Below the pieces are notes generated by a model that searched no databases, was not told the origin of the DNA, and saw only the letters and a list, made by a program, of their open reading frames with translations. Of a stretch of 64,000 bases of DNA, positions 1 to 2,890 are shown piece by piece. A program made the translations under genes and the position numbers. The stretch's first letter is position 1; each line of letters begins with the position of its first letter. This DNA is from a cyanobacterium PCC 7702 (GTDB lineage Bacteria; Cyanobacteriota; Cyanobacteriia; Cyanobacteriales; Nostocaceae): NCBI GenBank assembly GCA_000332255.1, contig KB235926.1:4292407-4356406 (forward strand). Direction: 5' to 3'.

Positions 1-16
1 CGGTTTCGGTTGTTAA
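1..16 (+). CDS. 3' tail of an upstream copy of the tandem secreted-protein gene (partial)
   Basis: The first 16 bases encode the end of the protein (Gly-Phe-Gly-Cys, then TAA) and match the last bases of the copy ending at 466. The 102 bases that follow are identical to the spacer after that copy. So at least one more copy lies left of the window. Only the last codons are visible. Confidence 0.8.
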
Positions 17-118
17 GCAATTCTCTATCTTTGCAGTTGGCGTTGCTAGTGCAAATTTGGCAACGCTTGCTTTCCACCACATTTCTACAACACAGAACTC
101 ATCAGGAGGTAAAAAATT

Positions 119-466
119 ATGTTTCGTAAAGCTCATATTCTCGGTGTACTAGCTGCTACCTTAGCGATCGCTCCCGGTGCTGCATTTGCTCAACAAACCT
201 CTGTCACTACTCAACAAAACAACCAAGAAGCAAACGTTCTCGGTACTGCTAATACCGTTGTTCAACAAGGTAGTCAGTACACCAACACTCATCAACTTAA
301 CATTAACAAGGGATTTTACTGCTCTGGCGTTTCTCAAGTTGCAGCTACTGTTCAAAATCAGTCCCAAAAGGCTAATGTAGCCGGAGCGTACAACACCGTT
401 GCTCAAATTGGCAACCAAGCTGCTCAGACCGCTCAAACTCAAATTTCTCACGGTTTCGGTTGTTAA
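119..466 (+). CDS. Small secreted Gln/Asn-rich repeat protein, copy 1
   Basis: 115 residues. Residues 1-24 form a clear signal peptide (MFRK, hydrophobic core, AAFA-QQ cleavage site). The mature part is two related blocks of about 42 residues. Each runs through an ANVxGxxNTVxQxGxQ core and ends in GFxC, so the protein has one cysteine per block. The Gln/Asn/Gly spacing resembles curlin-type amyloid repeats, but I cannot assign it to that family without a profile search. An AGGAGGT ribosome site at 104-110 supports the ATG. It is almost identical to the next gene and lies in the tandem array. Function unknown; a surface or extracellular fibre component is an inference. Confidence 0.85.
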   Translation: MFRKAHILGVLAATLAIAPGAAFAQQTSVTTQQNNQEANVLGTANTVVQQGSQYTNTHQLNINKGFYCSGVSQVAATVQNQSQKANVAGAYNTVAQIGNQAAQTAQTQISHGFGC

Positions 467-568
467 GCAATTCTCTATCTTTGCAGTTGGCGTTGCTAGT
501 GCAAATTTGGCAACGCTTGCTTTCCACCACATTTCTACAACACAGAACTCATCAGGAGGTAAAAAATT

Positions 569-916
569 ATGTTTCGTAAAGCTCATATTCTCGGTGTACT
601 AGCTGCTACCTTAGCGATCGCTCCCGGTGCTGCATTTGCTCAACAAACCTCTGTCACTACTCAACAAAACAACCAAGAAGCAAACGTTCTCGGTACTGCT
701 AATACCGTTGTTCAACAAGGTAGTCAGTACACCAACACTCATCAACTTAACATTAACAAGGGATTTTACTGCTCTGGCGGTTCTCAAGTTGCAGCCACCG
801 CTCAAGGTCAGTCTCAAAGCGCTAACGTCGCTGGTGCGTACAACACCGTTGCTCAAATTGGCAACCAAGCTGCTCAGACCGCTCAAACTCAAATTTCTCA
901 CGGTTTCGGTTGCTGA
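569..916 (+). CDS. Small secreted Gln/Asn-rich repeat protein, copy 2
   Basis: 115 residues, the last member of the tandem array. Signal peptide, first block and final 30 residues are identical to copy 1. The proteins differ only around residues 71-84, at the start of the second block (for example SGGSQ instead of SGVSQ, and AQGQSQSAN instead of VQNQSQKAN). It ends GFGC with a TGA stop instead of TAA. The same AGGAGGT site sits upstream at 554-560. Function is not known. The two-block architecture with terminal GFxC suggests repeated beta-strand units. Confidence 0.85.
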   Translation: MFRKAHILGVLAATLAIAPGAAFAQQTSVTTQQNNQEANVLGTANTVVQQGSQYTNTHQLNINKGFYCSGGSQVAATAQGQSQSANVAGAYNTVAQIGNQAAQTAQTQISHGFGC

Positions 917-1001: not shown

Positions 1002-1352
1002 ATGCTTGCTAAAGCATTTATCTCATGTTTGGCAGTGTCTGCACTGATGACCGTACCTACTGAAATTGCGACAGCAGAAAATATTACAGCTAAAAATGAT
1101 AATGTCAGGGTTACGGTAAAGCAAGGCGGTGACGTTACGATTTCCAATCCCAGCGGAACGCTCGTTGTTCCCCACAGCAGCAGTGCAAACCGTTTTCCTA
1201 CCAATCGTCTCTACCGCATTCCGGTCGCCAAGTCACCTCAATTACTATGCAGTAGAAAAATCGTAACTAACCAAAGTATTAAAACAAATAGTTCTAACAC
1301 TGCTATTCATCGCACTTACAGTTCTACAACAACGCAAATTTGTAAACGATAG
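1002..1352 (+). CDS. Secreted hypothetical protein, paralogue of the one at 1929
   Basis: 116 residues. It starts MLAKAFISCLAVSALM and has a signal peptide ending near AxA at residue 25. The mature protein begins with a region rich in Val, Asp, Asn and Gly (NVRVTVKQGGDVTI), then a PHSS stretch, and ends RTYSSTTTQIC plus two basic residues. The protein at 1929-2294 has the same layout: MFAKPLISLLALSG start, RVRIDRDGDIRI, IPHSW and RTYSSSTTIVC. The two are clearly paralogues. No known family recognised. It lies 85 bp after the tandem repeat array, on the same strand. Confidence 0.75.
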   Translation: MLAKAFISCLAVSALMTVPTEIATAENITAKNDNVRVTVKQGGDVTISNPSGTLVVPHSSSANRFPTNRLYRIPVAKSPQLLCSRKIVTNQSIKTNSSNTAIHRTYSSTTTQICKR

Positions 1353-1379: not shown

Positions 1380-1787
1380 ATGAAATTAAAATTTCTTTCT
1401 ATAAGCTTATTCTCACTTGGCATTATCTCTCCCTTTTTCATTCCTTCTTTAACTCCTGCTGCTAAAGCAGTAGGATGTGCAGCGATCGCGGTGACACCAC
1501 AAATATCAGTTCGCGGTTCTAAGCAACCAGCAACACAAACTAATACTGTTAACCAAGAAATCGATCCCAACTGTATTGGCAATACTGCTGTTTGCTCGGG
1601 TTCTCAAGTCGCTGTTGTTCCTGGAGCTGTTGAACAAAGAAGAAGTTGCACCCAAAACCTGGGAGGAGATCCTAACCGTACTCTTCCTGTTAGGGGCGGA
1701 GATGTGAAGTTCCAGTCCACTCCCAAATTCGACATATACAATCCTGCTCAAGATCAAGATTATCTTAATGGTGTACTAAAGAAATAA
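1380..1787 (+). CDS. Secreted hypothetical protein with four cysteines in the mature part
   Basis: 135 residues. The signal peptide covers residues 1-31 (MKLKFLSISLFSLG... AAKA-VG). The mature region has cysteines in VGCAA, DPNCIG, AVCSG and RSCTQ, consistent with extracytoplasmic disulfides, and a Pro/Asp/Asn-rich tail. It starts 27 bp after the preceding secreted-protein gene. An AAAGGA site lies about 10 bases upstream of the ATG. No family recognised. Context makes it part of the same exported set. Confidence 0.75.
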   Translation: MKLKFLSISLFSLGIISPFFIPSLTPAAKAVGCAAIAVTPQISVRGSKQPATQTNTVNQEIDPNCIGNTAVCSGSQVAVVPGAVEQRRSCTQNLGGDPNRTLPVRGGDVKFQSTPKFDIYNPAQDQDYLNGVLKK

Positions 1788-1928: not shown

Positions 1929-2294
1929 ATGTTTGCCAAACCATTGATTTCATTACTAGCACTTTCTGGATTCCTAGCATTACCTATTGGAATTGCCACT
2001 GCTGGTGAAATAGACATTCAAAACAATGGTACGAGGGTGAGAATCGATCGAGATGGGGATATCAGAATTAATTCTACTCCTACAGATAAAATTTACATAC
2101 CCCATTCCTGGCCTATTTCAGATTATCCCATTCAACCAAATTGGACTCGACCTTGGAAAATTTGGAGACTTCCAAGAAATAAAGATATTCGCTGCAATGG
2201 AAACACATACAGCAGCCATACTACTCGCAGCTATAGTCTTGGTAGTAGTAGCAGTCGAACTTATAGTTCTTCGACAACAATTGTCTGTCAATAA
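1929..2294 (+). CDS. Secreted hypothetical protein, paralogue of the one at 1002
   Basis: 121 residues from the ATG at 1929. The open frame extends to 1839, but this ATG has a good AGGAG site at 1913-1917 and starts a proper signal peptide (MFAKPLISLLALSGFLALP, cleavage near ATA-GE). The mature protein shares the pattern of the 1002 gene: alternating charged and hydrophobic residues (RVRIDRDGDIRI), IPHSW, and a Ser/Thr/Tyr-rich tail ending SSTTIVC. Two cysteines (IRCNG and IVC). Function unknown. The paralogy shows repeated duplication within this locus. Confidence 0.75.
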   Translation: MFAKPLISLLALSGFLALPIGIATAGEIDIQNNGTRVRIDRDGDIRINSTPTDKIYIPHSWPISDYPIQPNWTRPWKIWRLPRNKDIRCNGNTYSSHTTRSYSLGSSSSRTYSSSTTIVCQ

Positions 2295-2398: not shown

Positions 2399-2890
2399 AT
2401 GAAAAAGTTACTGTTTTTGGGCTTTTGCTTGGCTTTCGTTGCTTCTGTTTCCGCAGTTGCTGCTCAAAATTTCATTTCCCATCGCAAAGTTTCTTTGATT
2501 TATGCCGACAGCAATAGTGATGATATGCACAACTTTAGCACCTTTAGCCAGCAATCCAATTTTTCCTCTACATACCAACAAAACTTTCTTACTTTCAGGG
2601 CGACTAATCTAAGTCAACCTCATATTTTGACGGTTAAAACTTCAGGTGCTCAGCTCCAGGGCGAAATCACCCTTGATGGTAAAATTATCAAACTATTAAA
2701 CAGCAATCAAGTAGAAATTAATTTATCACCATTCCTATCTGTTGGAGAGCATCAGGTGAAAATTTCTGGACGTTATTCCCCTGTATCATCTTCTGCAAGC
2801 ATCACTCTGAGCGGTCCTGGTACTAATGTTATGCAACAAACTAGTGGCAATGGAATTTTATATCATGTTATTAACATGAGTATACATTAG
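2399..2890 (+). CDS. Secreted hypothetical protein, beta-rich
   Basis: 163 residues. The signal peptide is residues 1-22 (MKKLLFLGFCLAFVASVSAVAA-QN). The mature part has many Ser, Asn, Gln and Phe residues followed by alternating hydrophobic stretches (HILTVKTSGAQLQGEITLDG, VGEHQVKISG, SASITLSG) that look like beta strands of an Ig-like or jelly-roll fold. No cysteine in the mature part. No family recognised. It is the last of the rightward secreted genes and converges on the PIN gene, with only 3 bases between the stops. Confidence 0.7.
   Translation: MKKLLFLGFCLAFVASVSAVAAQNFISHRKVSLIYADSNSDDMHNFSTFSQQSNFSSTYQQNFLTFRATNLSQPHILTVKTSGAQLQGEITLDGKIIKLLNSNQVEINLSPFLSVGEHQVKISGRYSPVSSSASITLSGPGTNVMQQTSGNGILYHVINMSIH

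Follow-up and report, generated by a model that had tools for sequence, protein, structure and literature searches.

Four head-to-tail copies of a gene for a small secreted protein are detected by DNA and protein search in the assembly of the cyanobacterium PCC 7702, lying across the left edge of the window, by which we mean the whole analysed stretch of 64,000 nucleotides (positions 4292407-4356406 of the contig that carries the array). The source genome, 4.9 Mb in 4 contigs, contains no DNA match at E <= 0.001 beyond the four array copies, and in a protein search of the same genome at E up to 10 the best match after these copies has E 0.06. The copies are adjacent and on the same strand, with near-identical spacers, the arrangement by which we define a tandem array, and Tandem Repeats Finder gives a period of 450. 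The sequence-only reading of the window had the array continuing leftward, and two more copies are indeed present upstream in the assembly. All three spacers are identical in sequence; each has AGGAGG ahead of the following start codon and contains a GCGTTGC/GCAACGC hairpin whose folding is only modestly better than that of shuffled sequences (z -1.8). Scans for promoters and terminators gave chance-level results. The first spacer of another array (L041) has, by eye, the same hairpin stem, and other hairpins are seen by eye in the spacers of two more (L050 and L086). The features of the locus are collected in Table 1.

Table 1. Features of the array and of its downstream neighbourhood; L013 and gene coordinates are given where they apply.
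Feature	Window	Strand	L013 or gene position	Remark
Copy 1			L013:7632-7973	Type A
Copy 2	1-16 (3' end)	+	L013:8076-8423	Remainder left of the window
102-bp spacer	17-118	+		Type A downstream flank fused to type B upstream flank
Copy 3	119-466	+	L013:8526-8873	115-aa protein with leader; hybrid, type B front and type A back
35-bp switch tract	311-345	+	gene 193-227, copy 3	Copies 1 and 4 identical here
40-bp diverged patch, type A version	346-385	+		In copy 3
102-bp spacer	467-568	+		Identical to 17-118
Copy 4	569-916	+	L013:8976-9323	115-aa open reading frame; taken as the type B gene; last in the array
40-bp diverged patch, type B version	796-835	+	gene 228-267	Holds 12 of the 13 unit differences
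77-bp C-terminal near-identical tract	836-912	+	gene 268-344	Conversion-like
Small neighbour gene	1002-1352	+		Paralogue of 1929-2294
Small neighbour gene	1380-1787	+		Relative in 22 of 25 named loci
Small neighbour gene	1929-2294	+		Paralogue of 1002-1352
Neighbour gene	2399-2890	+		Relative in 19 of 25 named loci

By eye, the encoded proteins have a leader of Sec type, reading APGAAFA and ending in AFA, and two similar blocks per member; two cysteines follow residue 25 in 101 of the 126 distinct family members. The window proteins match no Pfam or NCBIfam family over its curated cut-off, and no convincing match was found in Pfam, NCBIfam or PHROGs, a comparison of 75 members with these families yielding scattered weak matches at E <= 0.01, none shared by more than two members. 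PDB sequences gave no match (best E 1.6). A structure model built from 73 of 90 distinct relatives together with the two window copies contains four long strands at low confidence (mean pLDDT 59). No known structure matches it at E <= 0.001, and FapC, a CsgA and HET-s are among the seven weak Foldseek rows, none of them significant (E 2 to 8).

The family sits in a recurring neighbourhood, the counts for which come from 25 named loci, several of them cut by contig ends. A relative of one or other of the paralogous small genes is present in 20 of these loci, and in PCC 7702 the two flank the gene at 1380 on either side. Of two genes lying upstream, a polysaccharide deacetylase has relatives in 16 of the 25 loci and an XRE-type regulator has them in 2, both names being read from sequence rather than from a family search. 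The model of the gene at 2399-2890, for which the alignment used 18 of the 19 named-locus matches, a short one in L080 being left out, has a confident C-terminal beta-sandwich. Its best structural row is the MmpL5-S5-AcpM complex, at a Foldseek E of 2.9e-3 and a Z of 7.7, and since these matches are only middling no function is drawn from them.

A comparison of the two complete units (window 1-450 with 451-900) gives 13 differing sites (unit positions 330, 346, 349, 351, 356, 357, 364, 369, 370, 376, 379, 382 and 385), and the remaining 437 of 450 bases agree, spacer included, so that the tally made by eye in the sequence-only reading is exact on recount. The exact P for 13 randomly placed sites falling within 56 of 450 is 4.2e-11. 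The description of all divergence as packed into 56 bp is accurate for units 3 and 4 and fails once copy 1 is considered, which is strongly different from copies 2-4 in its front half. At site 330 (window 330) copy 3 alone has changed, from G to T, whereas the other 12 sites set copy 4 apart from copies 1, 2 and 3 alike. The private changes of copies 2 (L013:8268) and 3 (L013:8737) convert glycine to R and to V, respectively, both near the middle cysteine and within the switch tract.

Copies 1 and 4 are diverged paralogues, referred to as types A and B, respectively. In its front half copy 1 stands apart from the other three copies, but its back half matches that of copies 2 and 3; copy 4 agrees with copies 2 and 3 in the front half and differs in the 40-bp back-half patch and from the stop codon onward; copies 2 and 3 are accordingly composed of a B front, an A back and an A downstream spacer. 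With copies 1 and 4 taken as parents and ambiguous bases excluded, a single switch from copy-4-like to copy-1-like sequence between gene positions 192 and 228 fits every informative gene site in copy 2 (76 of 76; 178 of 178 when 80-bp flanks are included) and all but one in copy 3 (76 of 77; 178 of 179 with flanks), the gene-only counts being the fairer because flanking columns are partly non-homologous. The lone exception in copy 3, at gene position 308, reflects a base that only copy 1 carries. Copies 2 and 3 are therefore hybrids in the sense used here, that is, genes with one switch inside a tract of parental identity, subject to the assembly being right.

Synonymous and non-synonymous divergence between copies 1 and 4 is equal in the front half (pS 0.571, pN 0.147) and the patch (pS 0.581, pN 0.158), while pS is 0.056 in the C-terminal segment and 0.109 in the switch segment, the latter value arising from one edge difference which is itself the first patch site. 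Across the 77-bp C-terminal tract the two copies differ at a single position, and one further base, in copy 1, is ambiguous. The patch is as diverged as the A/B pair in general; it is the two identity tracts that are anomalous. When the 47 differences over 285 sites were shuffled, the longest identity run had P 0.0185 and the two longest jointly P 0.00015; singly, these tracts are only moderately unusual. Inherent conservation of the switch zone was considered and rejected, as in other arrays a zone at roughly the same place, set by gene position, is no more identical than the gene as a whole in 17 of 22 pairs with gene identity of 65-90%.

These values bear directly on two explanations that had been offered for the clustering. 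Import of a variant segment is unneeded, the copy 4 patch differing from type A (pS 0.58, pN 0.16) to the same extent as the old B sequence elsewhere (0.57 and 0.15), so that it looks like a resident remnant. Selection for diversity in one short region of the protein, or hypermutation targeted to it, would account for unit differences so tightly clustered, but is very improbable. About 7 of the 12 patch substitutions are synonymous and 5 non-synonymous, yielding 3 amino-acid changes, one version of the patch is carried by three of the four copies, and pN/pS in the patch is about 0.27 against 0.26 in the front half of the A/B pair. Since both levels in the patch equal those in the rest of the pair, hypervariability need not be invoked, and this candidate was set aside.

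The arrangement is probably best explained by unequal crossing-over between neighbouring A and B genes, generating a hybrid, followed by an unequal exchange that duplicated it. The ancestral locus would have consisted of a pair of diverged paralogues side by side, A before B, each encoding a protein of ~115 aa with a secretion leader. Misaligned recombination of A on one chromosome with B on another, within the 35-bp identical tract, would yield a hybrid with a B front, an A back and the A downstream spacer, creating the 450-bp unit, and a second unequal exchange would then give copies 2 and 3. On this hybrid origin, mismatches between units 3 and 4 are confined to the positions at which A and B have stayed different in their back parts. 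The single switch in copy 2 together with the identical spacers is as predicted by unequal crossing-over of adjacent A and B genes; from it and from the equal divergence of front half and patch we infer recombination as the cause, as well as the order of events. Near-identity over the 77-bp 3' tract, where divergence is expected, may reflect gene conversion. The earlier suggestion that recombination homogenised the flanks is thus right in kind, its specific form being revised to unequal crossing-over, accompanied by an identity tract of conversion-like character.

Patchy gene conversion without crossing-over, in which several tracts were copied between existing genes and the 40-bp patch was left unconverted, is an appreciably poorer and improbable account. 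Some event of conversion type is needed for the 77-bp tract common to copies 1 and 4; however, in copy 2 both parts of the gene and the spacers on either side of it agree throughout with a single switch, for which one crossover is the simpler explanation. Unequal crossing-over as the preferred reading places the array among tandem arrays undergoing concerted evolution, which likewise have head-to-tail copies, identical spacers and a hybrid with one switch in an identity tract, and from which it does not differ in kind. As far as the searches go, the gene family and the organism are new examples of a known process. If the assembly is right, the locus offers a clean, small natural case of bacterial hybrid genes formed by unequal crossing-over, with the switch narrowed to 35 bp.

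Three isolated ambiguous bases are present in the assembly at L013 7957, 8383 and 8407, all within copies 1-2 and none in the window. Compared with twenty 20-kb samples of the same contig, in which 1 isolated N was found in 400 kb, 3 within the 1.7-kb array correspond to a Poisson P of about 1e-8, indicating that the assembly is unsure here and the copy number consequently uncertain. Exact repeats of 310 and 329 bp inside the array are long for short reads, which alone could therefore not fix the number of copies. Elsewhere in the contig sample, N runs of 479, 1198 and 1420 bases occur, which may be scaffold gaps or withheld stretches. A contig ends within 500 bp of a family gene in 10 of the 25 named relatives, so such arrays do break assemblies. 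The real locus might then consist of A and B only, or of one hybrid, the assembler having circled a 450-bp loop extra times, and such looping would yield an identical mosaic. We regard this artefact as unlikely. Copies 2 and 3 bear different private bases in the switch tract (gene positions 193 and 212), which pure loop copying would not produce, although they could stem from a mixed population. The tracts in which copies 1 and 4 are identical, 35 and 40 bp, are short relative to usual read lengths, and comparable arrays are present in single-contig genomes, for example as six consecutive genes in G111. The search for further assemblies of this species gave none, the genomes covered including two others of the genus, of which G002 also carries the family. 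The copy number thus comes from one assembly; four is the assembly's count rather than a measured one, and the true copy number is inferred from it with this uncertainty.

The leader, composition, copy number and neighbours of these genes suggest that the proteins perhaps have a secreted role at the cell surface or in the matrix. They resemble the curli subunits CsgA and CsgB of E. coli and relatives, which are likewise small, Q/N-rich and equipped with a secretion leader and repeated blocks; the low-confidence model contains beta strands that may be paired, as in the stacked strand-turn-strand fold of curli. The resemblance does not extend to the curlin signatures: the PF07012 curlin repeat has no match over its cut-off in the array proteins, and QxGxxN, contained in the minimal curlin motif X6QXGX2NX10 (PMC3521004), is found in 5 of 126 family members and, on reading, in neither window copy. 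The exporter CsgG was not found in the source genome by a search that was positive in 4 of 14 control genomes, and was found in 1 of 14 other family-bearing genomes (G081). Judged by repeat, motif and exporter, membership of these proteins in curli was rejected. Another likeness is to EbfG1-4 of Synechococcus elongatus, small secreted proteins encoded in an operon of four, of which EbfG4 has been observed on the cell surface as well as in the matrix, amyloid formation being reported for EbfG1-3 (PMC9981879). Both groups are small secreted cyanobacterial proteins, but the EbfG proteins have a double-glycine secretion motif, the array proteins having instead the leader that by eye ends in AFA. 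It is conceivable, if on balance doubtful, that filamentous cyanobacteria build an undescribed curli-like fibre, at the surface or in the matrix and independent of CsgG, from subunits encoded by these arrays, with unequal crossing-over repeatedly altering subunit number and creating hybrid subunits. Among the matches listed in open-licence literature on cyanobacterial curli, tandem genes and unequal crossing-over, neither the family nor crossing-over in it is described, which is weak evidence because only open-licence papers were covered.

The PCC 7702 locus is one of the arrays of a recurring cyanobacterial secreted family, variable in copy number and often situated at the ends of draft contigs. 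Of 217 genomes from the same taxonomic family, 72 are matched by a profile built on 26 members, and of 148 sampled from the order, 22 are matched by a 75-member profile, several of them weakly, the source genome being included in both counts and per-genome copy numbers from either search being lower bounds. In the order sample, G299, G315 and G331 have at least 9-16 profile matches each, many scattered over the chromosome rather than in one array. No relative of the family was found in the plasmid collection.

High identity between successive copies is widespread, reaching >=97% (rounded) over the gene in 18 of 59 pairs and in 10 of 13 arrays, that of PCC 7702 included. The 59 pairs remain from 64 after exclusion of the last pairs of L050, L087, L088, L090 and L091, in which only 21-27 gene columns align, and a few are not strictly adjacent, one N-broken copy being omitted from L042 and a gap of double length following the first copy in L087. 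Seven trios of copies in four arrays were checked for a switch. Four show one, two at the PCC 7702 locus and one each in L047 and L042, and no clear switch was seen in a further L042 trio or in two L088 trios. In copies 2-3-4 of L047, from the single-contig genome of another genus (G021), the switch is less clean and runs in the same direction, fitting 174 of 189 sites with flanks and 81 of 96 in the gene (15 exceptions). In L042, 96 of 109 sites fit with flanks (13 exceptions) and 32 of 38 in the gene. In none of the four trios with a switch did any of 1000 shuffles reach the observed value. At the ends of the arrays in L041, L042, L043, L047, L050 and L086-L092, the final or penultimate gene shares 46-61% identity with its predecessor, far under the level of most other pairs, as if the end of the array escapes homogenisation.
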